From Blastomonas sp. AAP53 (lineage in GTDB: Bacteria; Pseudomonadota; Alphaproteobacteria; Sphingomonadales; Sphingomonadaceae): DNA of 64,000 nt. Position 1 is the first letter of the stretch. Every line of letters begins with the position of its first letter. A program made the translations under genes and the position numbers. The notes below the pieces were generated by a model. The model saw nothing but the letters and a program-made list of their open reading frames with translations. It was not told the DNA's origin and made no database searches. This document shows positions 26,904 through 41,946 of this stretch, in pieces. The stretch covers positions 124,001-188,000 of the forward strand of contig NZ_ANFZ01000014.1 in the NCBI RefSeq assembly GCF_000331245.1, read 5' to 3'.

Positions 26904-26944
26904 GCCATGCACAAGGGCTGACATGAAAATGACAAACGCCGTTA
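26904..26944 (-). promoter_or_regulatory. Envelope-system box, copy B (upstream of the 118-residue protein)
   Basis: On the minus strand the box reads TAACG-N3-TTTGTCAT-N6-GTCA-N4-TTGT-N4-GGC. All elements and spacings equal those at 28016-28056 and 33871-33911, except that the copy at 33871 has CGCA for GTCA. TGTCA-like units recur at about 10-11 bp, as in OmpR/PhoB-family sites. The box ends 53 nt before the start at 26850. Confidence 0.75.
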
Positions 26945-27101
26945 GATTTCGCCTGCCCCTGACGAAAGCCGGACACGCAAGCGGCTGGATCACGGTCATC
27001 AGCGTTGCGCAACCAAGATCGGTTGCCCAGAGAAAAGGGTGCCAGCCTCGAAAGACTGACACCCCCCAGACAGTGAATTTGATCTGCGCTCGGGTCGCAA
27101 T

Positions 27102-27953
27102 CTAACGCAGGTCTTCCACTGAAACCCAACCTCTTGTCCCGCAAGTGTCGGCCAACTCGCCGAACATTCCGTCCTTCCTGCCCGTCGGGATCAGCGTCGT
27201 CGCAGCGCGCAGCGGGCGGACCGACCGGGCACCAGCTGTGGCGCAGGCCAACATCTTGGGGTCGACAGCAACGGTGTAATTGGCTGCTGGCGCGGCTGCG
27301 GTTGTCCCATTGATCGCAGCTCCCGGCGAGATCGCCTGTGATGCCAACATGTTATATGCCGCCATGAATGCGCTGGTGGCCATCTTGCCATCGGCGAATG
27401 TACCATATTGGCCGGGCTGGCCTTGGCTGGCAGCACCCCAGTCTGAGCTGCTGAGGATTTTGATCGTCGATTTCTGGCTCTGCCCGCTACCCGAGAGGAG
27501 CGTCTGGTCGTGAGCGGGGGTCACCAGCCGCAGGCCTGCGGTCATCGTTTTCTTTCTCCCGCCCAAGCCGCCCTGCATCTGCCCGCCGAAAGGTACTTTG
27601 GAGATGAGTGCACCTGCCGCTCCTGATTGTACCAGGCCAGACGTGGGTGCGCTTTTGGCTACGTTCACTGTCTGGTCGATTTCTTCCTGCGACCCGGCCA
27701 GGGCGGACAGCAGATGTTTGGCAGGCTCTCCTTGTACAATCGCCCCGAACATGGCCTGAGAGCTGTAGAGTCCCGGCTTGGTCCAGCCCTGCGGATCGCC
27801 ATCCGTGATTGCAGTGCTTGCATTAGGTACCGGGCAGGTCATCACCTCGACGTCGGCCGATCCCGGCTTTGCGCCCGCATAGGCAGGCGATCCAGCCATG
27901 GCCGCAACGGCGATGGCAGACAATGTCGCAGCAAACGGTTGTGTGCTGGTCAT
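27102..27953 (-). CDS. Exported protein of unknown function, first gene of leftward envelope operon
   Basis: A 283-residue exported protein, family not recognised. The signal peptide is at 1-27 (ending AYAGA). The mature part is Gly/Ala/Ser-rich with cysteines in VMTCPVP, KMLACATAG and ADTCGTRG, and a basic patch (GGLGGRKKTMTAGLRL). ATG 27953 has GAGGA upstream; the frame extending to 28220 is non-coding read-through of the divergent promoter. A full regulatory box ends 62 nt upstream. It is separated by 250 bp from the next gene, which has its own box. Confidence 0.75.
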   Translation of the reverse strand: MTSTQPFAATLSAIAVAAMAGSPAYAGAKPGSADVEVMTCPVPNASTAITDGDPQGWTKPGLYSSQAMFGAIVQGEPAKHLLSALAGSQEEIDQTVNVAKSAPTSGLVQSGAAGALISKVPFGGQMQGGLGGRKKTMTAGLRLVTPAHDQTLLSGSGQSQKSTIKILSSSDWGAASQGQPGQYGTFADGKMATSAFMAAYNMLASQAISPGAAINGTTAAAPAANYTVAVDPKMLACATAGARSVRPLRAATTLIPTGRKDGMFGELADTCGTRGWVSVEDLR

Positions 27954-28015
27954 GGCTGCATGTCCTCGTTGTGGTTGATTTGCAGCCTCAAGGCTAGGCG
28001 CGGACAGACCGAAAC

Positions 28016-28056
28016 GCCTGTTACAACCATTGACGGAAAGATGACAAAACGCGTTA
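28016..28056 (-). promoter_or_regulatory. Envelope-system box, copy A (upstream of leftward operon)
   Basis: Minus-strand TAACG-N3-TTTGTCAT-N6-GTCA-N4-TTGT-N4-GGC, ending 62 nt before the start at 27953. Viewed on the plus strand, TTAC/TGAC units begin at 28021, 28031, 28042 and 28054, roughly one helical turn apart. It lies in the divergent promoter region shared with the response-regulator gene, the natural candidate to bind it. Confidence 0.8.
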
Positions 28057-28112
28057 CCGCGGCGCCAGACGCAAACACGCTGGCAACACGACCGCGCGAT
28101 TGCGCTTGCGAC

Positions 28113-28128
28113 TAACGGAATTTGTAAC
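28113..28128 (+). promoter_or_regulatory. Half-box facing the response-regulator gene
   Basis: Plus-strand TAACG-N3-TTTGTAAC matches the first half of the 41-bp envelope-system box (TAACG-N3-TTTGTCAT) in 11 of 13 defined positions. The second half is missing. It points toward the response regulator start 116 nt downstream and could serve weak autoregulation. Confidence 0.4.
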
Positions 28129-28244
28129 AAGCATAATGTGCCAGCTTCGCTAAGGTCGTCTCGCCGACAGCTTGCCCTGCCCTTGTTGCTGCGGCAGTCT
28201 TTCGGGGCGGGAACCCACACGCGAATAGGACAGGCTCAACGACC

Positions 28245-28925
28245 ATGCTGAAAATCCTGTATGTCGAGGATGATCAACGCGCGGCGGGCGAAGTGCAAGA
28301 GCTTGCAGCAGAAAATGGTGATCAGCTCGTATGGGAATCCACCGGCGCAGGAGGCCTGTTACGCGCCGGGCTGGAGAAGTTCGATGTCATCATCCTTGAT
28401 CGGATGCTGGGTGATCTCGATGGCCTGACCATATTGCAGCGGCTTCGCGAAAGCGGGGTAGGCACACCCGTGCTGATGCTTTCGGCACTCGGCCGGACCA
28501 GCGATCGGTCCGAAGGACTGGAAGCTGGCGCGGATGATTATCTTGCCAAGCCTTTCGAAGCGCCCGAATTGATTGCCCGCATCCGGGCGCTCCACCGGCG
28601 GGCATCGGGACGCGAGCATAGCGCCGTCATCCTGTACGGCGCATTTGAGTGCCATGTGAAGGCGCGCACGGCGTTCCGCCAGAACCGCCACCTTTCGCTC
28701 AGCCCGCGAGAGTTCGAGCTGTTCCGCTATTTCATGGACAATGCCGGCGAGATCGTGACCCGAGAGATGTTGCTGCGCGACGTGTGGAACATGGCTTTTG
28801 ATCCGCAAACCAACGTTGTCGATGTCAATATCGGGCGGCTGCGGCGCAAGCTGGAAGACGGCTATGCCACCGCGGCGCTGGAGACGATCTGGGGATCGGG
28901 CTACAGGTTGCTAGACGGCACATGA
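28245..28925 (+). CDS. OmpR-family response regulator
   Basis: A 226-residue regulator. The receiver domain (1-115) has acidic pocket EDD, phospho-acceptor Asp52 in ILDRMLGDLDG, the conserved Ser/Ala step MLSALG and lysine in YLAKPF. The winged-helix DNA-binding domain (about 130-224) has LSPREFELFRYFMDNAGEIVTREMLLRDVW and NVVDVNIGRLRRKLE. It overlaps the kinase gene by 4 bp. It sits in the middle of the envelope locus, divergent from the exported-protein operon, so it is the presumed reader of the three 41-bp boxes. Confidence 0.95.
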   Translation: MLKILYVEDDQRAAGEVQELAAENGDQLVWESTGAGGLLRAGLEKFDVIILDRMLGDLDGLTILQRLRESGVGTPVLMLSALGRTSDRSEGLEAGADDYLAKPFEAPELIARIRALHRRASGREHSAVILYGAFECHVKARTAFRQNRHLSLSPREFELFRYFMDNAGEIVTREMLLRDVWNMAFDPQTNVVDVNIGRLRRKLEDGYATAALETIWGSGYRLLDGT

Positions 28926-30268
28926 TCTTCTCATCGCACCGTTCCATATTCACCCGCATCGTTGTCCTTGCCATCGCGCTGTCGGTGGTTCTGGTTGCCG
29001 GGCTGTGGTTGCTGACCGACCGCACGATTCGCGCTACGCTCGATGCATCGGCCCGCGAAGCGGTCGATGTTGATCTGGCCGGACTTGTCGACATTCACGC
29101 AAGCGGCGGGCAGCAGGAACTGGCCCGCCGCATCGGCGACCGCCTGATGATGAGGCCTGCCGATGGCAGCCTTCCTCACTACCTGCTCGCCGATGGTGCG
29201 GGACGGCGGATCGCCGGTGACATCAGCACATGGCCCGCCCTTGATGCGCGGGTTTCGGAAGGCGGCATGATCCGCATTGGCGAGGCAACCGACGCCTTCG
29301 CCCGGGCTACGCGATTGGGGCCTGATCTGCGGTTGGTGGTCGCCCATGAAGCGGCGGACGGACGACCGTTGCTGCAACGGGTTGCCCTCGTCTTTCTTGC
29401 AGGCGGTGGAGTGTTTGTCCTGACGGTCGGACTGTTCGGACGTACCGCCATCGGCCAGCTGCAACGCCGTATTGCAAGCATCAACCGCGCGTTTCGAGAT
29501 CTGGATGCGCGGCATATCCGCATGCTGGCGGAAGGACGGCGCACCGACGAGATCGACGAACTCGCCGGGCATAGCGCGGTCGCTCTGGCCCGGCTGCGCG
29601 ATTTGATGAAGGCCTATCGCGAAACCTCTGACCAGGTTGCGCACGAAATCCGCACGCCGGTGATGCACCTCGACCGGCGGTTGGCGAAGCTGCTTGCGGC
29701 CAAGCCCGACGCTGATACCGCCAATGCGCTTATCGCTGCCCGCACGGATATTCGCCATCTGGTCTCGACGCTGGAATCGCTGCTGGACATCGCGGCGAGC
29801 CGGGCACGGCGCGGCGACCGCATCGGCCTGAAACGCATTGATCTGTCCGCGCTGCTGGAGAGCATCTGCAACCTGTATGCCGACAGCTCGGAAGAATCGG
29901 GGCACCAGTTTGTCTGGACCATCGAACCAGGTGTGCATATCGATGGCGAGGAAACGCAACTGAGCAGGCTGATCACCAACCTGCTCGACAACGCCTTCAA
30001 ATATGTGCCCCAGGGAGGGAGCGTCACAGTAACGCTTGGCGCCGGTCCGGTCCTCACTGTCGAAGACGATGGGCCAGGAATCCCCGAAGCGGACCGAGCC
30101 CGCGTGTTCGATCAATTCTACCGGAGCGACAATGTCGCTCAACACCAGCCGGGCAGCGGTCTGGGGCTGGCGCTGGCCCGCGCGGTTGCCGAACGCCACG
30201 GCCTGACGCTCGATCTGGTCGACAGCACGCAGGGTGCCAGCTTCAAGCTATCAAGGGAAACTCAATGA
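28922..30268 (+). CDS. Membrane sensor histidine kinase
   Basis: A 448-residue kinase. TM1 is at about 12-32, a periplasmic sensor segment of about 115 residues follows, TM2 is at about 155-175, then a HAMP-like linker. The HisKA domain has His241 in DQVAHEIRTPVMHLDRRL. HATPase motifs are NLLDNAFKYVP (N box), VEDDGPGIPE (G1), VFDQFYR (F) and GSGLGLALAR (G2). The ATG overlaps the regulator stop (ATGA) and the lipoprotein gene overlaps its end by 4 bp, making a tight operon. The signal sensed is unknown, presumably an envelope condition. Confidence 0.95.
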   Translation: MIFSSHRSIFTRIVVLAIALSVVLVAGLWLLTDRTIRATLDASAREAVDVDLAGLVDIHASGGQQELARRIGDRLMMRPADGSLPHYLLADGAGRRIAGDISTWPALDARVSEGGMIRIGEATDAFARATRLGPDLRLVVAHEAADGRPLLQRVALVFLAGGGVFVLTVGLFGRTAIGQLQRRIASINRAFRDLDARHIRMLAEGRRTDEIDELAGHSAVALARLRDLMKAYRETSDQVAHEIRTPVMHLDRRLAKLLAAKPDADTANALIAARTDIRHLVSTLESLLDIAASRARRGDRIGLKRIDLSALLESICNLYADSSEESGHQFVWTIEPGVHIDGEETQLSRLITNLLDNAFKYVPQGGSVTVTLGAGPVLTVEDDGPGIPEADRARVFDQFYRSDNVAQHQPGSGLGLALARAVAERHGLTLDLVDSTQGASFKLSRETQ

Positions 30269-30846
30269 TGCGCTTGCCAGTGCTTCTTGCCGTTGCTGCG
30301 TTCGTACTGGCATCGTGTACCCATGCGGCGCCAACCGCCGCGCCATCACCTTCCAGCCCTGCGGGCAAGGGATCGAACGCTGAATTGCTTGCCGATGCGC
30401 TGGCGCAGGCAGACCGGGCTGCATCGGCTGGAGACGACACTGGCCTGGCACGCCCGCTTGCGATGATTGCCGCACTCGATGCCCGTCCCCTGGACGCCGA
30501 GGGGCAAGCCGGACTGGAGCGCTGGCGGCGCAGGAGCCCCGACACGACTGCACCTCTGCGCGGTCGCACGCTGGGGCCTGGATATCGTCACGGAACGCTG
30601 AATGCGGGAGGCGATCTGCGGATCGAACAGACCTTCCTTTCGGGGCAAAAGGCATCGATCGCGCTCTCCACGCCCGATGGGGCGAAGCTGCGCCTGCAGG
30701 TCGTCGATGGTGCTGCGCATCCGGTGTGCCAGTACGAGGCGGCAAGCCCAAGTTGCGAATGGATCCCCATCTACACGCAACGGCATGTCATACGCCTCAT
30801 CAATCCCGGCCGCCGGAAAACGCGTTTCTACCTTGTGATCGACTGA
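30265..30846 (+). CDS. Lipoprotein with PPC-like beta domain
   Basis: A 193-residue lipoprotein. The lipobox LASC places the lipidated cysteine at residue 18. A helical Ala-rich segment (about 38-85) precedes a beta-sandwich-like end (GDLRIEQTFLSGQKASIAL, LRLQVVDG, RHVIRLINPGRRKTRFYLVID) that resembles pre-peptidase C-terminal (PPC) domains. Two cysteines (HPVCQYEAASPSCEW) may pair. Overlap with the kinase gene and the downstream CHAT gene 37 bp away suggest it links sensing and effector, for example by holding the kinase or CHAT protein at the membrane; this is inference. Confidence 0.75.
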   Translation: MMRLPVLLAVAAFVLASCTHAAPTAAPSPSSPAGKGSNAELLADALAQADRAASAGDDTGLARPLAMIAALDARPLDAEGQAGLERWRRRSPDTTAPLRGRTLGPGYRHGTLNAGGDLRIEQTFLSGQKASIALSTPDGAKLRLQVVDGAAHPVCQYEAASPSCEWIPIYTQRHVIRLINPGRRKTRFYLVID

Positions 30847-30883
30847 TTGATCCCTAGTCTGCAAGAGACAGGGGGGAATTTGC

Positions 30884-33805
30884 ATGCGTGTTTCGGTTGG
30901 ACTGATGGCGCTTGGATCGTTTGTGCTCGCCGCGAGCGGGGCATCTGCATTGCAGGCACAGCAGCCTCCGCCGTCGCATCCAATTTCCAGCCCCGCCGCA
31001 TTGCGCAGCGCAGCCGAGGCGATCGATCCCTTGGGCAAGGCGGCCGAGGCGGAAGCGGCATGGCAGGCCTATCTGGAAGCACTGGAGATCACGGGCGGTC
31101 CGGTCGCAGATCAGGCCTTCGCACTCAACCGCATGGGCGATTCGCGCTACTATCAGCAGAATATGCAAGGCGGTCTCGATGCCTCGCTCGAAGCAAAGCG
31201 TCGGCTGGAGGCTGCCAACGAAGCCGAAGGCGAACCGATGGCTGATACGCTGGCCAATATCGCGACCTTCCGCGGTGCGCTGGGTCAGTCGGACCTGGAA
31301 CTTCCGCTGCAGGAGCAATCGCTGGCCATCCGCAAGCGCCTGTACGGCACGGATCCTACACGGCTACCTCCTGAACAGGCCAAGTCCTTGGGCCTGGGCT
31401 ATCTCAACTATGCCAACGCCTTGTATACCGCCGGACGGTTCAGCGAGGCGGCCGATCTGGTCAAGCCATCGATCGACGGAGTCGTGACAGGCGAATTGCG
31501 CGATGCAACGCTGTTCGTGGCGATGTCCAGCGGTGCCAACATGCTGATTGATGCCGGGCGCACCGCCGAGGCGCTGGAACTGGCGCAGCGCGGAGTGACC
31601 ACGGCGACTCAACTGCTGCCCGAGGAACATCCGTTTATCGGCTTTGCGCATGCAACGCTCGCCAAGGTTCTGTTGCAATCCGACCGGTTCGTCGAGGCGG
31701 AAGCGCCCGCGCGCCGGGCAGTCGATATCATGGTTGCCAAGCTGGGGCCGAACAATCGCAACACGATGACCGCCGTGCACAATCTGGGCGTCATTCTGGC
31801 GCGTCTGGGGCGGTTCGAGGAATCGATCGCCCTCACCATGGCCGGGCATGACGCAGTGCGCAAGATCGATCCCGGCAACAGCATCAACCAGCTGGTCAGC
31901 GCGTCCAACGCAGCGCACGAGGCAGGCAAACAGGACATGGCGCGGGACCTGGCGCAGCGCGCCGCCAGCGTTGCTGAAACCGTACCCGATGGCGACAGCC
32001 GGGCGGCGAAAGGGCTCACCGTGCTCGCGCTCCGGCAGGATGAGGCTGGCGATGCGAAAGCCGCGCTGCAAACGTTGGACAGCATCGTCGCCCGGCGTGC
32101 CAGAGCAGGCGTCGCGTCCAACGACACCGTGCTGGACCTCCAGCGCGGCCTTTTCCAGATCAAGGCAGGCGATCGCGAGGCGGGTTGGAAGCTCGCCTCA
32201 CGTGCTGCCACGGCAATCGAGGCTGACCTGATCGCCGACGCCGAACGCTTCGAACTGGGCGCCGATCTGGCGAGCTATTACGAAACCATCATGCATATGG
32301 TCGAGGCCGCGTTCGCGGCAGACCGGCCAGATGATGCGCTGCATGCGTTTGAACTCGCCGGATGGGGCGTCAATGCCCGCACCCGGCAGCTACTGGCACT
32401 CAAGACCAGCGTCGAGGATCAGCCCGCGCTGGCAGGAAAGGTCGAGGCTTTCGAAACCGGCAGCGCGCGCCTGCGCATCCTGTACCGGGAGCGCGCCGCA
32501 CTGCTGGCGAGCGACAAGACCGAGGCCGCAGCGGCGCGCGCAAGCGAGATTACCACGCTGGCGGATTCCCTTGCGCAGCTTCGCGCAGAACTTGTCACCG
32601 CAATCCCCGATTTTGGCCAGTGGGTCCGTCCGGCAACGCCAACGGTCCAGCAGGTGCAGGCACGGCTCAGCCCGGACGAGGCGATCCTGATTGCGATGCC
32701 CGGCAGAAGCCGTACGTTCACCATGGTCATCACCGCCAATGGGGCGGTCATGGCCTCAAGCGAGCAAGGTCGCCCGACTGTCCGCGCTCTGGTATCTGAT
32801 CTGCGGTTGACGCTTGATGGCAAGCGACCAAGCGAAGTCGCCGGATTTGCCCGGAATGCCGCTGCGCTGCACGATATCGTTCTGCCCGAACGCGCGGCCG
32901 CCGCGCTGGCGGGGCACAAGCGGGTTGCAGTGGTCACCAGCGATGCCCTGTCGCGGCTGCCGTTCAGCGTGCTGCTTCCTGCAGTCCCGTCAGTGGATCA
33001 GAAAGACTTCAAGGGCATGGACTGGATGGCTCGCCGCCATGCCTTTTCGATCGCCCTCACCCCATCGGCCGCTTTTGCCAAGCGCGATGACGGCGCAACG
33101 CGGTTCAGTTTCCTGGGCGTTGGGGCACCGACCTTAAGCGGCGTGGCAGACCCGGCAAACGGATCGGTGAACCTGTTTCGCGGCGGGTCTGCCGCGATTG
33201 AGGATGTGCGGTCGCTGCGCCCGCTGCCTGCATCGGCTGGAGAAATCGCGAAGGTGGCCGCGATCCGGCAATTTTCGACACGCCTTGCGCTCACCGGGGA
33301 TGATGCCACCGAACTGCGCGTAAGACAGGCGAGCGGGACAAACTACGCGGTGCTGTTGTTTGCTACCCATGGGTTGATGGATGGCGAAGTCGCAGGGCTG
33401 AACGAACCGGCGCTGGTGCTCACCCCGCCTGCCCAAGCAGGCAGCGCCGAGAATGACGGGCTGTTGCTGGCGAGCGAGATCGGGGCGCTGGGCCTCGGTG
33501 CCGATTTCGTGATCCTCTCTGCGTGCAACAGCGCCGCCGGTCGCAATGAGACAGCGCCCGCCTATACCGGACTGGCAAACGCTTTTCTGGGATCGGGTGC
33601 GCAGGGATTGCTGCTCTCGCACTGGCGGGTGCGGGATGATGCAGCGGCCTATCTCAGTACCCTCACCGTGGAGCGCGCGCTTGCCGGGACACCGCATGCA
33701 GAGGCTTTGCGTCAGACGCAGATCGCGCTGATCGACGGCAAGGCCGGCATAGCCGATAGCGCCAATCCCTCGATCTGGGCGCCGTTCGTCCTGGTGGAAC
33801 GATAA
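30884..33805 (+). CDS. Exported TPR-CHAT protein (caspase-like peptidase)
   Basis: A 973-residue protein with a signal peptide (1-25, ending ALQAQ). TPR-type helical repeats span about 40-500 (NYANALYTAGRFSEAADLV, HPFIGFAHATLAKVLLQSDRFVEAEAPARR, VHNLGVILARLGRFEESIAL). The C-terminal CHAT domain (about 610-970) has the catalytic dyad intact: His829 in LLFATHGLMDG and Cys881 in VILSACNSAAG. CHAT is a clan CD (caspase/separase) peptidase fold, and cytosolic members are proximity-activated effectors. Here the signal peptide implies action outside the cytoplasm. It is in line with the two-component operon. The substrate is unknown; the neighbouring surface protein is a candidate. Confidence 0.92.
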   Translation: MRVSVGLMALGSFVLAASGASALQAQQPPPSHPISSPAALRSAAEAIDPLGKAAEAEAAWQAYLEALEITGGPVADQAFALNRMGDSRYYQQNMQGGLDASLEAKRRLEAANEAEGEPMADTLANIATFRGALGQSDLELPLQEQSLAIRKRLYGTDPTRLPPEQAKSLGLGYLNYANALYTAGRFSEAADLVKPSIDGVVTGELRDATLFVAMSSGANMLIDAGRTAEALELAQRGVTTATQLLPEEHPFIGFAHATLAKVLLQSDRFVEAEAPARRAVDIMVAKLGPNNRNTMTAVHNLGVILARLGRFEESIALTMAGHDAVRKIDPGNSINQLVSASNAAHEAGKQDMARDLAQRAASVAETVPDGDSRAAKGLTVLALRQDEAGDAKAALQTLDSIVARRARAGVASNDTVLDLQRGLFQIKAGDREAGWKLASRAATAIEADLIADAERFELGADLASYYETIMHMVEAAFAADRPDDALHAFELAGWGVNARTRQLLALKTSVEDQPALAGKVEAFETGSARLRILYRERAALLASDKTEAAAARASEITTLADSLAQLRAELVTAIPDFGQWVRPATPTVQQVQARLSPDEAILIAMPGRSRTFTMVITANGAVMASSEQGRPTVRALVSDLRLTLDGKRPSEVAGFARNAAALHDIVLPERAAAALAGHKRVAVVTSDALSRLPFSVLLPAVPSVDQKDFKGMDWMARRHAFSIALTPSAAFAKRDDGATRFSFLGVGAPTLSGVADPANGSVNLFRGGSAAIEDVRSLRPLPASAGEIAKVAAIRQFSTRLALTGDDATELRVRQASGTNYAVLLFATHGLMDGEVAGLNEPALVLTPPAQAGSAENDGLLLASEIGALGLGADFVILSACNSAAGRNETAPAYTGLANAFLGSGAQGLLLSHWRVRDDAAAYLSTLTVERALAGTPHAEALRQTQIALIDGKAGIADSANPSIWAPFVLVER

Positions 33806-33825
33806 GCACAGCGGCAGTCGAAGCT

Positions 33826-33861
33826 GCAGCCGCAGCCGCAGGCGCAGGCGCAGGCGCAGGC
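33826..33861. repeat. Hexanucleotide repeat (6 units) next to regulatory box
   Basis: Six contiguous 6-bp units, two GCAGCC then four GCAGGC, start 21 bp after the CHAT stop. They end 9 bp before the 41-bp box of the Slam-like gene. The array is non-coding on the plus strand and prone to slippage, so length may vary between strains and shift upstream promoter spacing. Confidence 0.85.
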
Positions 33862-33870
33862 GACACGCCA

Positions 33871-33911
33871 TAACGCGGTTTGTCATGATTTGCGCAACGC
33901 TTGTCACGGGC
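33871..33911 (+). promoter_or_regulatory. Envelope-system box, copy C (upstream of Slam-like gene)
   Basis: Plus-strand TAACG-N3-TTTGTCAT-N6-CGCA-N4-TTGT-N4-GGC, differing from the other two copies only in CGCA for GTCA. TTGTCA occurs twice exactly 21 bp apart. The box ends 61 nt before the start at 33973, matching the 62 nt at the leftward operon. It makes the Slam-FecR-CHAT2 genes a second target of the same regulator. Confidence 0.8.
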
Positions 33912-33972
33912 CCGAACGGGCGCGCTGGCCTATCCCTTCGCTTGCAACCAAACGAGGAGCAAGGGGGCCATC

Positions 33973-35304
33973 ATGCGCATTTCCAATGTCATCACCGCAT
34001 CGGCAGTTGCACTCAATGTTCTGGCCTATGCCGCGTTGACACCTCCCGCAGCGGCGCAGAGCGAAAGCGACCTGCGCCAGGCGATGGAACAGCTCAAGGC
34101 CGGGCAGGCAGAAGCCGCATATGCGACGTTGAAGGGGCTGGAGGCTCAGGGTGCTGGCAACCAGGATTATGACCTTGCGCTGGGCCTGGCCGCGCTGGAA
34201 AGTGGCCGCCATGGCGAGGCAATCATCGCGTTTCAGCGGATCCTGGCGCAGAACCCCGGCAATGCGCGCGCCCAGGCCGAACTTGCGCGCACCTATGCCG
34301 CCGCTGGCGATATCGACACCGCACGCGCCGAGTTCGATACCGTGCGCGGAGACCCTTCGATCCCCGATCCGGTCCGCAACCGGATCGACGGGCTTGTCCG
34401 CAACATCGACCGCCAGATCGCGGGCGGCGCAGCCGAACTGACCGGCTATGTCGATTTCGAGGGTGGCCGCGACAGCAACATCAACACCGCCACCGACGCG
34501 ACATCGGTCACCTTGCCACTGTTCGCATTTCTGGGGCCGGCCAATCTGAACGGTGCCGCGCGGCAGCAGGATGCGGGATTCTACCAGATCCAGGCCGGGA
34601 TTTCCGGATCTCTGCCGCTCGGCCGCCAGACCCGGCTGTTTGCATCGGCACTTGGCAACTGGCGCGACAATATCGACAGCCGGTTCGTCGATCAGGCATC
34701 GGTCGTGGGCACGGTGGGCATCGCGCACAGCCTTGCCAACGGGGATGTCATCTCCGGTTCCGCGCAGGGCCAGCGCTTCTGGCTGGGCCGCAATGGCTTT
34801 CGCACCAGCACCGGCGGTGATTTGCGTTATACCAAAAAGCTGGCGTCCGATCGCGCGCTGTCGGTCAGCGGGCAATTCTTCCGGCTGAATTTTGACGGCA
34901 ATCCACTGCTCGATGCGGATCGGTTCTCCGGCAGCATCACCTATGCCGACAAGGCTGTCTTCGGCGGCATTGGTGGCGGCAAGGAAGAGACGCGGCGTGC
35001 AGGAGCCGATCAATTCAGCTTTGCCTTTGTCAACGCCCAGCTGGGTGGCGAACTCGATCTGGCAGACAAGGCAGCCCTGATCGGCGGGGTCAGCATTGAG
35101 CATCGCGACTATGACGCCCGCGACCCACTGTTCCTCACGGGCAGACGCGACACGCAATACGATGTGTCGCTGGGCGTGCGCTACCGGTTCACCGAGACAT
35201 TGAGCGTCCGTCCGCGCGTCACCTACACCCGCAACGACAGCAATCTGGCGCTCTACGATTATGACCGCTGGACCGCCTCGATAGGCGCCCGCTTCAGCTT
35301 TTGA
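33973..35304 (+). CDS. Slam-like TPR/outer-membrane beta-barrel protein
   Basis: A 443-residue protein. The signal peptide is at 1-28 (ending AAAQ). N-terminal TPR helices (about 30-145) include HGEAIIAFQRILAQNPGNARAQAELARTYAAAGD. A C-terminal barrel (about 155-443) opens with GYVDFEGGRDSNINTATD and ends WTASIGARFSF. This is the layout of surface lipoprotein assembly modifiers (Slam), outer-membrane proteins that move TbpB-like substrates to the cell surface. The next gene encodes just such TbpB-like barrels, which strengthens the assignment. ATG 33973 has a GAGGAGC ribosome site. First gene of the operon behind box C. Confidence 0.85.
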   Translation: MRISNVITASAVALNVLAYAALTPPAAAQSESDLRQAMEQLKAGQAEAAYATLKGLEAQGAGNQDYDLALGLAALESGRHGEAIIAFQRILAQNPGNARAQAELARTYAAAGDIDTARAEFDTVRGDPSIPDPVRNRIDGLVRNIDRQIAGGAAELTGYVDFEGGRDSNINTATDATSVTLPLFAFLGPANLNGAARQQDAGFYQIQAGISGSLPLGRQTRLFASALGNWRDNIDSRFVDQASVVGTVGIAHSLANGDVISGSAQGQRFWLGRNGFRTSTGGDLRYTKKLASDRALSVSGQFFRLNFDGNPLLDADRFSGSITYADKAVFGGIGGGKEETRRAGADQFSFAFVNAQLGGELDLADKAALIGGVSIEHRDYDARDPLFLTGRRDTQYDVSLGVRYRFTETLSVRPRVTYTRNDSNLALYDYDRWTASIGARFSF

Positions 35305-35307
35305 ACC

Positions 35308-35337
35308 TTGACCGACCAGCTTTTGACCGACCAGCTT
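35308..35337. repeat. 15-bp tandem duplication at the Slam/FecR gene junction
   Basis: Two exact tandem copies of TTGACCGACCAGCTT directly follow the stop of the Slam-like gene, and a third TTG begins before the ribosome site of the next gene. CAGCTTTTGA in the last codons of the upstream gene shows where the unit came from. It sets the 47-bp spacing between the two coupled genes. Confidence 0.85.
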
Positions 35338-35351
35338 TTGGGAGACCACGC

Positions 35352-38147
35352 ATGACCCGGACCCGCCACCGCAACACCTCTGTCATGACCGATGTGAAAC
35401 TGGCCACCGCAAGCGCTCTGGCGACGACTGTGGTCATCTTGCTGGCGCACGCGACACCTGCCTTCGGCGCGGACCGGGTTTTCGCATCGGCAGGCGCAGG
35501 CAGTCCGTCTGCCGCCAATGGCGCGGGCGAACAGCAGATCGCATCGGGGACAGTGCAGCTCCGGCTTGATGACGGGACCTTGATCAGCATTGTCGGCCCG
35601 GCGCGCTATGCGATCGATGCCGGCGGGCAGATCAGGGTTCTCAGCGGCAGCTTCACCGCCGCTGCACCCCAGGGCAGTTTACCAAGACCCATTGTTGCCG
35701 GCAGCGGCAGTCAGGTGACGCTGAGCTCCGGCGGCAGCACGAGTGGCAAGATTGGTGCAGATGGCGGATTTTCAGGCTTTGCCCTGACCGGATCGATGCA
35801 GATCGCCAGCGGAGGAAAAACGCGAGGCTTCTCCGCGGGTAACGCCTTCCGGGCCGGTGCAGGCTCACCTCCGTCGGCGGCAATAACCGCCGGGGCGCAA
35901 CCCAATCGCAGCGGTGGCCAAACCGCGCTGCAGCAAGTGTATCAGGCGCAGGCGGCGGCTGCGCAATATCTGGCCAACCCCAGCCAGACCACGCCTGCGG
36001 CACTTGGCTTTGCCGGGGTGTCGCAGACGCAAACGTTGGTTCCCGGTACGCTGCAAGCAGCGACAACGCCTGCGCAATTTCAGTCGTTGGTGCAGGCGCA
36101 AACCGGTCAGCTTGATCCCGACATCGCGTTGCGGTTCATCACCGAAATTCTGACGGCCGCCAGAAGCGGGACGCTGGGGTCCTATTCCGGTCTGACGCCG
36201 ACGCAGATTCAGGCGTTGCTGTTCAACCTCCAGACCTTTGGTGCCCCCGCCAGCCTTTCGCAGACGCAACTGGAAGAGTTTCTGCGCGCACTCGGCGCGG
36301 CAGGCTATGCCATCTCCGGCATCAGCGGACAGGGGCCAAGCTTCGGGTCTATCGCCGATCTGCTGGCGCTGGTCGCGTCAGGCGGAACAATCCCGCCAGG
36401 CGATCCGACGGTGCAGGCTCTGGTCGACCTGCTGTTTTCGGGCCTGTTCCCTCCCGGCCTCGATCCCAATGAACTGGCGCGGCTTTTCCGTCTGGCAGGC
36501 TATACTGTCCCGCCGCAGTTCGGTGGCGGTTCGGGTGGTGGCACCGGAGGAGCGCCAACACCCACTCCAACGCCAACGCCCACGCCGCCCCCTCCCCCGG
36601 TGCTCACCGCATCCGATGGCATGCGGCCCGATGGAACGCGCAGCGATATCAACCTGGCCTTTGCGATCCTGACAGAAACCGGACAGGCATCCCCCGTCAC
36701 GCTTCTGTTCGACAATGGGGCGTTCGTGGGCTTCCGTCGACCAAGCGGGTTCGAGCAGCTGTTCACGGGTCGAACCGAGGCAGAGAAGGGCGGCGACAAG
36801 GGCGTGATCGGATGGACCCGCCTCACTGGCGGGACACGCGCGCTGGGAGCCGTGCGTGGCCCCAATAGCGGCGATCATTTCATCTTCGGCGTGCCAATCT
36901 CCAATGCCCCGACAGGCGGGCTAATCAGTTATGACTTGATCGGGTATACCAGCCCCACGCTGCGAGATGACAGTTCGGCGCCAGGCTCGTTCAACGGCAA
37001 GTTTTCCGTGAGCTTTGGCGGGGCGCAGACACTGGCAGGGCTGGAGGCGACGATATCGCTCGCGGATTCGGTGTATAACGTCATGTCGTCGGGGGGTGTT
37101 CTGGCGCCCAGCGTGCCGGTTCTCGGGCGCGAGGGCAGATTCAACGGAACCATCGATCTGCCCGATGGCCTGGGCATTGCCTGCAACACCGGCAAGTGCC
37201 GCTTCGTCTTCAACGGCTTTCTGGCAGGTGACGGGGCCAGCCATGCAGGCTTTGCCTATACCATTCGCGACGATGCGCTGAATGTTTTCAAATGGATCGA
37301 CGGCACTGCGGCCTTCGCCCGCGCCGCCAATACTGGCGGGCCCGCCAACCCGATCACCAAGACCTTCCGCGGGGTCAAGGTCGACGGGTCCTTCACCCAG
37401 CCAGGCATGGGCAACTTCGCCTCGGCGCTGGATGTTTCGAGCAACTTCCTGACTCGAGGTGAAATCCAGGCAGACGAAGGCCGCGCCATCCGCATTGCCG
37501 GCTATGCCGATGGGCCGGCCGGAAACCTCTCGGCACTGTCTGCAGTCACCGTCGATGCTGGCATCGGCAATGCGCAACGCACCATCGGGACCGCGCGCAA
37601 TGCGGACAATGGCGCGATCGGCAATGTGCTGGGCTGGACCCGCTGGACCGACGGGGAATTTGCCAACACCAAGGGTGGCAAGCGTGTCCTTTCGGGCAGT
37701 GAATCGATCCATTACATTTACGGTTCGCGCGCCACGGGCACCTTGCCTGCAGGCCGCGCCGAATATGCCGTGGCCGGCGGCACCCGCCCTACCCGCGTCG
37801 ATGGGATGGGCAGTCCGGGAACCTTCCAGGGGGGAATCGCAATCGACTTTGCGACATTGAAAATGGGATGGGACACGATCATCGGCATGGGAGATGACCG
37901 GTTCAACTTCCTCTCGAGCGGCGGGCTGCAAAACCTGTCTGTCAATGTCAGCAATCTCGGCAATGGCAGAGTGAGTTTCGCCGGCGATGGCACGGTGATC
38001 TCGGAAAAAGGCCGCTGCCAAGGCTGCACCGGAACAGCCAGCGGCTTTGTCAGTGGTCCAGATGGCCGCTTTGTCGGCTTTTCCTACCAGATTGGAACGG
38101 TCGACTTTGGCTCGCTCCACGGCGTTGCAGGATTTACCCGGCAATAG
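35352..38147 (+). CDS. Exported FecR-domain protein with two TbpB-like barrel repeats (putative Slam substrate)
   Basis: A 931-residue protein. The signal peptide is at about 1-40 (ending TPAFGA); it has no lipobox, unlike most Slam substrates. A FecR-like domain (about 60-130: SGTVQLRLDDGTLISIVGPARYAI) precedes a Gln/Ala-rich helical region (about 190-390) and a Gly then Pro-Thr linker (about 390-415). Two homologous barrels of about 200 residues follow (about 447-653 and 733-931). Both run from IGWTR/LGWTR through SFNGKFSVSFGG or TFQGGIAIDFAT, a G-C-C motif (CNTGKCRF or CQGCTGTA) and GFAYTIRD or GFSYQIG. Start ATG 35352 has GGGAG; a TTG at 35301 is also in frame. Confidence 0.82.
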   Translation: MTRTRHRNTSVMTDVKLATASALATTVVILLAHATPAFGADRVFASAGAGSPSAANGAGEQQIASGTVQLRLDDGTLISIVGPARYAIDAGGQIRVLSGSFTAAAPQGSLPRPIVAGSGSQVTLSSGGSTSGKIGADGGFSGFALTGSMQIASGGKTRGFSAGNAFRAGAGSPPSAAITAGAQPNRSGGQTALQQVYQAQAAAAQYLANPSQTTPAALGFAGVSQTQTLVPGTLQAATTPAQFQSLVQAQTGQLDPDIALRFITEILTAARSGTLGSYSGLTPTQIQALLFNLQTFGAPASLSQTQLEEFLRALGAAGYAISGISGQGPSFGSIADLLALVASGGTIPPGDPTVQALVDLLFSGLFPPGLDPNELARLFRLAGYTVPPQFGGGSGGGTGGAPTPTPTPTPTPPPPPVLTASDGMRPDGTRSDINLAFAILTETGQASPVTLLFDNGAFVGFRRPSGFEQLFTGRTEAEKGGDKGVIGWTRLTGGTRALGAVRGPNSGDHFIFGVPISNAPTGGLISYDLIGYTSPTLRDDSSAPGSFNGKFSVSFGGAQTLAGLEATISLADSVYNVMSSGGVLAPSVPVLGREGRFNGTIDLPDGLGIACNTGKCRFVFNGFLAGDGASHAGFAYTIRDDALNVFKWIDGTAAFARAANTGGPANPITKTFRGVKVDGSFTQPGMGNFASALDVSSNFLTRGEIQADEGRAIRIAGYADGPAGNLSALSAVTVDAGIGNAQRTIGTARNADNGAIGNVLGWTRWTDGEFANTKGGKRVLSGSESIHYIYGSRATGTLPAGRAEYAVAGGTRPTRVDGMGSPGTFQGGIAIDFATLKMGWDTIIGMGDDRFNFLSSGGLQNLSVNVSNLGNGRVSFAGDGTVISEKGRCQGCTGTASGFVSGPDGRFVGFSYQIGTVDFGSLHGVAGFTRQ

Positions 38148-38251
38148 GCTGACGGCTTCCATCACAGGCGCCATGCTGCCCCTGCGGATCAGATTTACGC
38201 GCCCCCCTAGCAATGATAGCCCAGTAATGGGGCAAGGGGGAGATGCCGATC

Positions 38252-39574
38252 ATGCATTCCATATTCACAAGCGCTGCGATTTTCAGGTGGTTGCTGCCAT
38301 TCACGGCATTGGCGATGACCAGCATCGGGGCACCGCTCAACGCTCGTACCGCCGATTGCGATGTTGCTGCACAGCAGCAACAGCGAGCCAGAGCGCGTGT
38401 GGGGGCCGTTCGTGGAATGCCGGCCCCCGCCAGCAACGCGGGGCAGACATCCACGACACAGCTCGCAAAGCGGCTTGAACGTCAGATCGAAGAGGGAGGG
38501 CTGCCGCCGACAACCGCACTTCTGTTCTACACCCGAGCCGCTGACGGCAGCCTCAATGTGTGCCTGGTCAACCGCAATGGGCTGGCGGCATCAGCGCTAT
38601 CCGAAACCGATGAAAGTTCGCTTCTCAAATCGGTGCAGGCGCTTCGCTGGGCCTATGGCGTTGAAGAGCTGCAGCAGGTCCGTGCCGCGCGGCGATCGGC
38701 CGACCCATTGCCGCCCCCTCCGGACGTTCTGCTTGCACCCGAAACAGCCGAAACCGATCTGACCCGCGTGCTGCTGCCACCATCCATTGCGTCGATGCTG
38801 GCGGGCGTGGAACATCTCATCATTGTACCTGCAGGCTCGATTGGGACAGTACCGTTTCCGGCACTGAAGCCGTTCGGCAATACCGATGCTCTTGTCGATC
38901 GCACGTCGATCACCATCGCGCCAAGTCTGGCCGAGTTTGAAAACAGCGGCAGCACATGGGCAGCCTCTGCGGCCTTCGCGCGTCCGCTCGTGGTTGGCGA
39001 CCCCAGCCTGCCTGTCAGCGATGAATGGGTGATTCCGCCATTGCCGGGCGCTCGGGCCGAGGCAAGAGGCGTGGCAAGACGCCTGAAGAGCAGAGCTCTT
39101 TCCGGCGACAAGGCGGTCCGCTCTGCGGTCGTCGAGCGTGCACCGGGGGCAAGCGTGATCTACGTCGCTGCCCATGGCGCGTCCGACCCGGCACGCCCAC
39201 TGGACGGCGGCTTCCTCATGCTTTCCGGGCCGACCCTGGAAGCCGGGTGGTGGACTGCGCGCGAAATCCAAGGCAGCAAGCTTCCAGCAGAACTGGCGGT
39301 CTTGAGCGCATGCCAGACGGGGCTGGGCCAGGTCCACGATGGTGGCATGATCGGTTTGGCGCGGGCGTTCCAGCTGGCCGGAACACATCGGGTCATCATG
39401 AGCCTCTGGAATGTGGATGACGCAGCGACACAGGTGCTGATGACGCGCCTGATCACATATGCCGAAGCGCACCCTCCTGCAGAGGCACTGCGCCTGGCCA
39501 TGATCGACACGAGGAAGGATTATCCCGATCCCGCGCTTTGGGCATCGTTCCTGATGTTCGGATCGGCCCGCTAG
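38252..39574 (+). CDS. Second exported CHAT-domain protein (caspase-like)
   Basis: A 440-residue protein with an N-terminal signal/anchor (about 1-30) and a short Gln/Arg linker with one cysteine. The CHAT domain (about 75-440) has His308 in VIYVAAHGASD and Cys354 in LAVLSACQTGLG, both catalytic positions present. It ends in the family's WASFLMFGSAR. Unlike the first CHAT protein it lacks TPR repeats. ATG 38252 sits 9 nt after GGGGGAG; the in-frame ATG at 38243 abuts that site. It follows the FecR/TbpB-like gene by 104 bp in the same direction, probably one operon. Substrate unknown. Confidence 0.9.
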   Translation: MHSIFTSAAIFRWLLPFTALAMTSIGAPLNARTADCDVAAQQQQRARARVGAVRGMPAPASNAGQTSTTQLAKRLERQIEEGGLPPTTALLFYTRAADGSLNVCLVNRNGLAASALSETDESSLLKSVQALRWAYGVEELQQVRAARRSADPLPPPPDVLLAPETAETDLTRVLLPPSIASMLAGVEHLIIVPAGSIGTVPFPALKPFGNTDALVDRTSITIAPSLAEFENSGSTWAASAAFARPLVVGDPSLPVSDEWVIPPLPGARAEARGVARRLKSRALSGDKAVRSAVVERAPGASVIYVAAHGASDPARPLDGGFLMLSGPTLEAGWWTAREIQGSKLPAELAVLSACQTGLGQVHDGGMIGLARAFQLAGTHRVIMSLWNVDDAATQVLMTRLITYAEAHPPAEALRLAMIDTRKDYPDPALWASFLMFGSAR

Positions 39575-40882: not shown

Positions 40883-41043
40883 TATCTCGAAGGGGTTGGC
40901 ATCGCGCCCAGGGCTGTTGATCGGAGCGAATGACGGCACCTGCCCGGGGCCGATTGATCGACCGTCCGCGCTCTCATCAAATCGCAGCCCTGCACGTTTG
41001 CAGATTGCCAAGGTCGCAGGTGCGCGGCATGATTGGCGGGCAA

Positions 41044-41946
41044 ATGGACGCACCCGTCACCGTCGCCTTTCGTGCCCCCCGGCCTGAGCTGGCCCCCTAT
41101 ATCTCAAGCTATTACGAGCTCACCGTGCAGGGTGACACACAGGTGGAGGATTACCTTCACCCGGAATGGGGCAACATCCGCATTGCACTCGGCAATCCCT
41201 GGATCATCGGGAGCGATGCAAACGGTGCTGGCCGATATTCGGGAGACCCGTCCATTCTGCATGGGTGCACCAGCAAGCCGACCTATCTCAGGGGCTGTGG
41301 CAGAAGCTTCGGGATCGGCATTCTGCCACTGGGCTGGAACCGACTGTTCAAGGTGGATGCCAGCAGCCTGGCCGACCGGATCGTTCCGCTGGCATCCGTG
41401 CTGCAAGACAAGCAGGGCGCGAGCTTCATCGAGGATATGCACGGCGCGCGCGATCTCGATGCCCGCAAGGCGGTTGCCGACCAGTTCTTGTGGGACCGGA
41501 TCAGCGCCAGCCGGCCCGATCGCAGCTCGCGCCTGATTCCCGGACTGCTGGCCTTGCTCGCCGATCCCGACAATGCCACCGTCGAGCATCTGACCGTGCC
41601 GCTGGGCATTAACCAGGTGCAACTGGCGCGGCTGTCCAAACGGACGCTGGGCTTTACGCCCAAATTGTTGCTGCGGCGCCAGCGTTTCCTTCGGATGCTG
41701 GGCATCATGTACGGGCGGCCCTATGCGGAGTGGCGCGACTTCATCGACCCGCAATATTCGGATCAAAGCCACCTGGTGCGCGACTTCCAGTATTTCGTCG
41801 GCATGAGCCCGAGGGCCTATTTCAACATGCCCAGACCCATCCTGACTGCGGCGGCCGCAGCGCGAGCGGCCATGTTTGGCCAGCCGCTGCAGGGACTGCA
41901 CGGCGCGCCGGACGCGAAAACATGGATTTCGTCCAAGACCAGCTGA
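41044..41946 (+). CDS. AraC-family transcriptional regulator
   Basis: A 300-residue protein. The N-terminal sensor region opens with a DUF6597-like segment (RPELAPYISSYYELTV) and HPEWGNIRIALG. The C-terminal double HTH (about 185-285) has VPLGINQVQLARLSKRTLGFTPKLLLRRQRFLRML and DQSHLVRDFQYFVGMSPRAYF. The second of these is the recognisable AraC signature. ATG 41044 was chosen because homology begins just after it; ATG 41029 is an alternative. Target unknown; the aminotransferase gene 160 bp upstream runs in the same direction. Confidence 0.88.
   Translation: MDAPVTVAFRAPRPELAPYISSYYELTVQGDTQVEDYLHPEWGNIRIALGNPWIIGSDANGAGRYSGDPSILHGCTSKPTYLRGCGRSFGIGILPLGWNRLFKVDASSLADRIVPLASVLQDKQGASFIEDMHGARDLDARKAVADQFLWDRISASRPDRSSRLIPGLLALLADPDNATVEHLTVPLGINQVQLARLSKRTLGFTPKLLLRRQRFLRMLGIMYGRPYAEWRDFIDPQYSDQSHLVRDFQYFVGMSPRAYFNMPRPILTAAAAARAAMFGQPLQGLHGAPDAKTWISSKTS

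Follow-up and report, generated by a model that had tools for sequence, protein, structure and literature searches.

A two-unit promoter box that very probably marks a small private two-component regulon in Blastomonas sp. AAP53

Three copies of a 41-bp promoter box in Blastomonas sp. AAP53 flank the genes of a response regulator and a sensor kinase. Does the box mark a small private gene set run by this neighboring pair, and if so, how would the regulator act on it? A sequence-only reading of the window (the whole stretch of 64,000 nucleotides analyzed, positions 124,001 to 188,000 of contig NZ_ANFZ01000014.1) had proposed such a regulon. Here, we report a computational follow-up of that proposal in this genome and in related genomes of the Sphingomonadaceae. 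Judged from sequence, the box very probably does mark such a gene set, and we give a probability of about 0.82 to the reading in which the response regulator encoded between the boxes acts on them as operators, by activation, through two units at effector genes and one unit at its own promoter.

Boxes and genes in the window

All three boxes were confirmed on the strands and at the positions first proposed. Box 1 (26904..26944, minus strand, before the gene P118) and box 2 (28016..28056, minus strand, before P283) matched the 41-bp pattern exactly, and box 3 (33871..33911, plus strand, before a Slam-like gene) matched it with 2 mismatches. Distances from box to start codon were likewise as claimed (53 nt for P118, 62 nt for P283, and 61 nt for the Slam-like gene, each box facing its gene), measured to the start codons of the sequence-only reading; the mechanical open reading frames of P118 and P283 extend further upstream, and a P118 homologue in genome G281 starts at the same Met as the P118 start used here. 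The pattern at up to 3 mismatches found no further place in the window, and none of 100 dinucleotide shuffles gave a match (all other shuffles reported here were mononucleotide). Across the 3.6-Mb genome (28 contigs), the pattern at up to 3 mismatches found boxes 1 to 3 only, and a reversed-pattern control had 0 matches. A profile from 32 boxes (150 of 749 first-look candidates scored) recovered the same three (genome-wide E values of 5.9e-7, 6.2e-5, and 0.001 for boxes 1, 2, and 3); the next best match was nonsignificant (E, 0.47). Wide spread over unrelated promoters, which would speak against a private regulon, was looked for in the genome and not seen, with three profile matches only, and the operator is confined to a few promoters, as in a private regulon. 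Directly between box 3 and the preceding TPR-CHAT gene lies a GCAGGC hexamer array (6.2 copies, 33826-33862).

An OmpR-family regulator and its kinase are indeed encoded between the boxes. The response regulator (RR; 28245..28925, plus strand), the proposed box-binding protein, has a receiver and a winged-helix domain (PF00072 and PF00486), and its gene adjoins that of a sensor histidine kinase (HK; 28922..30268, plus strand; PF02518), the composition expected of an OmpR-family two-component private regulon. The best NCBIfam match of the RR was TIGR01387 (cztR_silR_copR), with a score of 194 bits, clearly below the cut-off of 279.2. The third gene of the signaling operon (30265..30846, plus strand), which overlaps the HK gene by 4 nt, encodes P193, a lipoprotein-like protein with no Pfam match and no usable match in a PDB profile search. 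Its lipobox-like Cys18 is present in at least 90% of 30 homologues, and Cys155 and Cys164 are invariant; being encoded together with the kinase, P193 is a candidate accessory sensor.

The gene that follows (30884..33805, plus strand) encodes a TPR-CHAT protein (CHAT1; PF12770, E value of 1.1e-41, with TPRs) whose N terminus is, by eye, signal peptide-like. Downstream of box 3 lie three genes. The Slam-like protein (33973..35304, plus strand) was assigned to the Slam/type XI secretion outer-membrane proteins (PF04575 SlipAM, 36.1 bits, cut-off of 22), with TPR_16 and TPR_19 above their cut-offs and TPR_Slam at 19.5 bits, below its own cut-off of 35.2. It is followed by a 948-amino acid (aa) protein (35301..38147, plus strand) with a proline-threonine stretch, a signal peptide-like start by eye, no Pfam match, and nothing of the TbpB type in either Pfam or the PDB profile search; two PDB matches of its profile (positions 268 to 354) were set aside and taken as the proline-threonine stretch. 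This protein is the probable cargo of the Slam-like protein, given its position after Slam and its likeness to the "Sphingomonas surface protein" architecture described in PMC12282271. Next comes a second CHAT protein (38243..39574, plus strand; PF12770, E value of 3.7e-54).

On the minus strand, P283 (27102..27953) is an exported-looking protein whose homologues have a C-terminal SH3 domain. Of 25 aligned members, 24 match PF08239 SH3_3 and 2 match PF03783 CsgG; the only one without SH3_3 is the P283 of the window, which had no family match at an E value of ≤0.1 and gave no usable match in a PDB profile search. P118 (26494..26850, no Pfam match) is the first gene of the second boxed operon and is followed, with a one-base overlap, by P289 (25625..26494, minus strand, no Pfam match), which has a homologue beside P118 in four operons on other contigs.

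Box anatomy and the regulator promoter

The box consists of two 16-bp units spaced at 21 bp: over 31 effector boxes, columns 1 to 16 and 22 to 37 correlate at 0.81, versus ≤0.21 at every other shift from 8 to 25. The proposal that TGTCA-like elements recur every 10 to 11 bp was ruled out by this column shift test (0.16 at 11 bp) and is replaced by the 16-bp unit, an imperfect palindrome of about CTRACNG-N3-TTGTCAT. Counted from the gene-proximal TTGT, an A at +31 was present in 29 of 31 effector promoters and a T at +35 in 20 of 31, which points to a −10 element of the form TAnnnT at a constant distance, common to the Slam, P283, and P118 promoters; the gene-proximal unit ends 23 bp upstream of this −10-like element. 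Conservation covers the letters of the box and the −10-like position; flanks and linkers are low in information. In the window, the putative −10-like elements at +30 to +35, placed with the profile of 31 promoters, are CATGCT for P118 (26879..26884, minus strand), TAGCCT for P283 (27991..27996, minus strand), and TATCCC for Slam (33931..33936, plus strand).

The half-box claimed to face the RR gene is present as a single unit (TAACGGAATTTGTAAC; 28113..28128, plus strand), and 0 of 500 shuffles reached its score with a unit profile built from effector boxes only. Its putative −10-like element, TAAGGT (28151..28156, plus strand), lies by eye at +29 from the TTGT of the unit. With the unit profile from effector promoters only, a unit reached by ≤5 of 500 shuffles was found in 33 of 47 RR promoters in the family (in one of them, L092, it sits inside P283); in 8 of the remaining 14, the RR gene lies downstream of P283 in the same direction, behind the P283 double box. 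Sorted by hand, the 47 RR promoters have one unit in 21 (13 genera, this genome's included; L120, L121, and L122 assigned by hand), two units in 14 (4 genera; 9 in genus g36, degenerate), a position behind a P283 double box in the same direction in 9, and nothing clear in 3. Since 14 of 47 have two units, a single unit is no rule for the regulator gene, and the occurrence of two-unit RR promoters in four genera weakens the idea of a dose code.

Co-occurrence of box and regulator in the family

RR orthologues (E value of ≤1e-85) were found in 46 of 397 family genomes (18 of 96 genera), and a search of 289 genomes sampled across the class, at an E value of ≤1e-75, found the RR in just one, that of the window. 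Named records with a near RR were Novosphingobium silvae (82%) and Sphingobium sp. Ant17 (63%), so that the family of the genomes compared is presumably the Sphingomonadaceae; at the other loci among 80 kept around OmpR-family RRs, RR identity was ≤49%. Among the 20 of 64 records listed, a plasmid search gave short matches in the RR gene. The 47 RR loci (window included; stretches of ≤20 kb, window part of 27 kb) hold homologues of HK in 47, P193 in 36, CHAT1 in 19, P283 in 15, Slam in 10, and P118 in 8, the HK homologue lying in the same stretch every time.

Scanning this and related genomes, the check that the sequence-only reading had proposed, gave the three sites in this genome and a box that tracks the RR orthologue in the family. 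The 41-bp pattern itself (up to 3 mismatches) was absent from 148 other family genomes and was too narrow, since a degenerate form of the box emerged on reading the promoters of P283, Slam, and RR homologues. In a profile scan of 77 genomes, 39 of 39 matches at an E value of ≤0.005 fell in genomes with the RR (26 of 34 such genomes, the other 8 having no double-box match at this threshold) and 0 in 43 genomes without it, G040 among these; many of the RR-linked matches are also in the training set of the profile, and the stricter filters applied to a scan of over 40 genomes lose weak matches. At an E value of ≤0.1, the 43 genomes without the RR had 4 matches, versus about 4.3 expected by chance.

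Homologues were also collected by protein and their upstream regions scored with profiles trained without the tested RR-bearing genus, the sites having been gathered over all genera before removal. The box was found upstream of the Slam-like gene in 11 of 12 genomes with the RR versus 2 of 10 without (score of ≥14; Fisher P = 0.0015); the Slam gene itself occurs in 22 of 397 genomes. For P283, counts were 7 of 10 versus 0 of 8; the window was left out of these, and one of the eight had only about 100 nt of upstream sequence (31 genomes matched; 19 at an E value of ≤1.2e-43 were kept, 18 plus the window, and 12 weaker partial matches dropped). For P118, they were 11 of 14 versus 0 of 2, and 14 of the 16 genomes with a P118 homologue have the RR (hypergeometric P = 1e-12). 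At the 47 RR loci, with the tested genus removed from the profile, the two-unit box was present at P283 in 15 of 15, at P118 in 7 of 8, and at Slam in 9 of 10 (window included; four P118 cases are near-identical, and the missing Slam case has no upstream sequence in its stretch), and for none of these 31 locus boxes was the score equaled in 100 shuffles. Among the 80 background OmpR-family RR loci, which span 1.4 Mb and take in the two named near RRs, a score of ≥15 was seen in four (best, 20.9), and the two named loci (82% and 63%) had no double box scoring ≥15 within 20 kb. In 4 genomes of one genus, the P118 operon is boxed on a contig other than that of the RR. Many promoters come from close relatives, and the counts are thus not independent. 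Operator and RR co-occur across genomes as in a private regulon, with exceptions, and together with the rarity of the box in the genome this supports the regulon first proposed, in which binding by the RR remains a prediction.

The exceptions are of several kinds. P118 lies far from the RR in six RR-bearing genomes (on another contig in five, about 790 kb away in G119), and the two such cases that belong to genus g36, G119 and the other-contig case G178, have no box. G342, which has the RR with two copies, has no box at its Slam gene, and three other RR-bearing genomes (G165, G124, and G135) have no double box at P283, with a single unit by eye in G124. G040, a boxed Slam exception scored as lacking the RR, encodes a 57% identical RR on the same contig. 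Four genomes scored as lacking the RR have matches at 45 to 50% identity, which we tentatively take to be other regulators. In G099, Slam, a cargo-like protein, and P283 stand beside an unrelated two-component system (RR, 33% identical), with no box. In G131 (L275), the other boxed Slam exception scored as lacking the RR, a single unit stands before a partial Slam gene, and the RR was absent at an E value of ≤1e-55.

Unboxed Slam genes in four genera have another palindrome, CCATCCC-N-CGCGGGATGG-like, starting 59 to 73 nt before the Slam start (L261, L262, L264, and L259, from G161, G342, G102, and G245, respectively; weaker in G245). G342, the lone Slam exception among RR-bearing genomes, belongs to this group, and the palindrome suggests a regulator swap; a looser form of the pattern also matches the boxed G338, at 251 nt. 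A third motif, TGTCAGGAAACGTCAG, begins 61 to 67 nt before the Slam start in L257, L258, L260, and L263, four genomes of genus g31 in which the RR is absent at an E value of ≤1e-85. Patterns for these alternative motifs were written after the sequences were seen and serve as a lead only.

Further candidate members were sought around 17 match regions, 7 of which (L164, L165, and L169 to L173) had no convincing target; L164 has a partial match before a PEP-CTERM-like protein, and in L171 (5000-5036), from G157, which belongs to the same genus and lacks the RR, a weak box-like site (E value of 0.044) resembles the window boxes and is either chance or a relic. In G065 (L158:4853-4888), a box on a contig other than that of the RR precedes a 334-aa exported-looking protein without homology to 13 window proteins tested. 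In G312 (L157:5278-5318), the box precedes a stretch that aligns with the 948-aa protein over its residues 17 to 65 only (61%) and may be what is left of a Slam operon since lost. In G338 (L159:5257-5296), the box has a P283 homologue on one side and an AraC-like gene on the other; by eye, the latter resembles the window gene at 40930-41946. Near the RR loci of G281 (L168:1867-1906) and G354 (L167:1494-1528), boxes precede, by eye, Sel1-type repeat proteins, which are unboxed in the window. The site is precise enough to flag regulon candidates off the main locus, among them P118 operons, Sel1-type proteins, and the 334-aa protein.

Competing readings, proposed mechanism, and known systems

It is very improbable that the box core is a Pho box bound by PhoB and not by the neighboring RR. 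The E. coli Pho box, CTGTCAT-N4-CTGTCAT, is an 11-bp repeat (PMC3465305) to which the middle of box 1 (TTGTCATTTTCATGTCAG) bears a resemblance. The boxes here, however, lack a direct repeat at 11 bp (column correlation of 0.16 versus 0.81 at 21 bp), and the single-unit RR promoters are, by eye, without a second TGTCA at that distance. PhoB is expected in nearly all of these genomes, yet the 43 without the RR have no box above chance. Repression, with the RR bound at the boxes and the envelope genes silenced until the kinase is switched, is unlikely on the present evidence. Position alone does not fix the sign of regulation, but the proximal unit is placed as for activators, ahead of the expected −35 and at a constant distance from the −10-like element. 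Sites that block the polymerase more often overlap or follow the core promoter. A precedent for repression is E. coli CusR, which is described in PMC8249747 as repressing its target without metal.

We give next to no credence to the box being nonfunctional sequence that travels with the promoters of a mobile gene block when these are duplicated or transferred. The distribution of the genes is patchy (RR in 46 and Slam in 22 of 397 genomes), and the block is rearranged between genomes. Against this, the flanks and linkers around the conserved box letters and −10-like position have little information content. Boxes precede three gene families that are unrelated to each other, in four genomes on separate contigs, and are rare upstream of homologues in genomes without the RR.

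The best reading of these sequences is that a CusR/CopR-like OmpR-family RR controls the Slam operon, the CsgG-SH3 protein, the P118 operon, and itself. Activation is preferred over repression because of the position of the unit upstream of the expected −35. The 21-bp unit repeat, equal to two helical turns, could allow two RR dimers to sit next to each other on the same face of the helix, and the proximal unit, just upstream of a poor −35, would help RNA polymerase. Double units would serve the effector operons (Slam/type XI and its probable cargo, the P118 operon, and the CsgG-SH3 protein). At the regulator's own promoter, the single unit seen here and in about half of the related genomes would make autoregulation weaker. 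An envelope or surface signal may be sensed by the kinase, perhaps aided by the lipoprotein P193.

Among known systems, CusRS, HprRS, and CopRS are similar in having an OmpR-family RR (that found here is nearest to TIGR01387), a palindromic TGACA...TTGTCA-type unit (PMC11195947), and a very small regulon beside the regulator (PMC11195947 and PMC8249747); palindromic sites are reported for E. coli CusR and Pseudomonas aeruginosa CopR (PMC11195947), and the regulons of CusR and HprR are very small and adjacent (PMC8249747). The present system differs from them in that its RR scores 85 bits under the family cut-off, two tandem units at 21 bp precede the effectors instead of a single palindrome, and the targets are surface and envelope genes rather than metal efflux; by eye, the palindrome has one more internal base than that of CusR. 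PhoB and the Pho box share the OmpR-family fold and TGTCA elements, but the Pho box consists of 11-bp direct repeats (PMC3465305), in contrast to 16-bp units at 21 bp. Type XI (Slam/DUF560) loci are alike in having, after a PF04575 protein, a large one that contains a proline-threonine stretch (PMC12282271), but CHAT, FecR, and two-component have 0 occurrences in the main texts of PMC12282271 and PMC8406197. A literature search, which covered only a minority of subscription papers, showed no description of the regulon among the papers listed. Private two-component regulons are a known kind; in the literature searched, neither this example nor its tandem operator nor its connection with type XI secretion appears to have been described.

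More tentatively, a family-wide module (RR, kinase, lipoprotein, and often an exported CHAT protein) might run a surface-protein program by a promoter dose code, with two units at effectors and one unit at the regulator in many genera; where the module is missing, type XI operons would stand under other regulators and palindromes, and masters would be changed by swapping one box. We consider this wider scheme possible but doubtful. For the genes of the boxed operons, the regulon would provide a regulator together with its operator, in one form for effectors and another for autoregulation. Type XI secretion and exported CHAT proteins would also be tied to a two-component system, a wiring of secretion that is directly testable.
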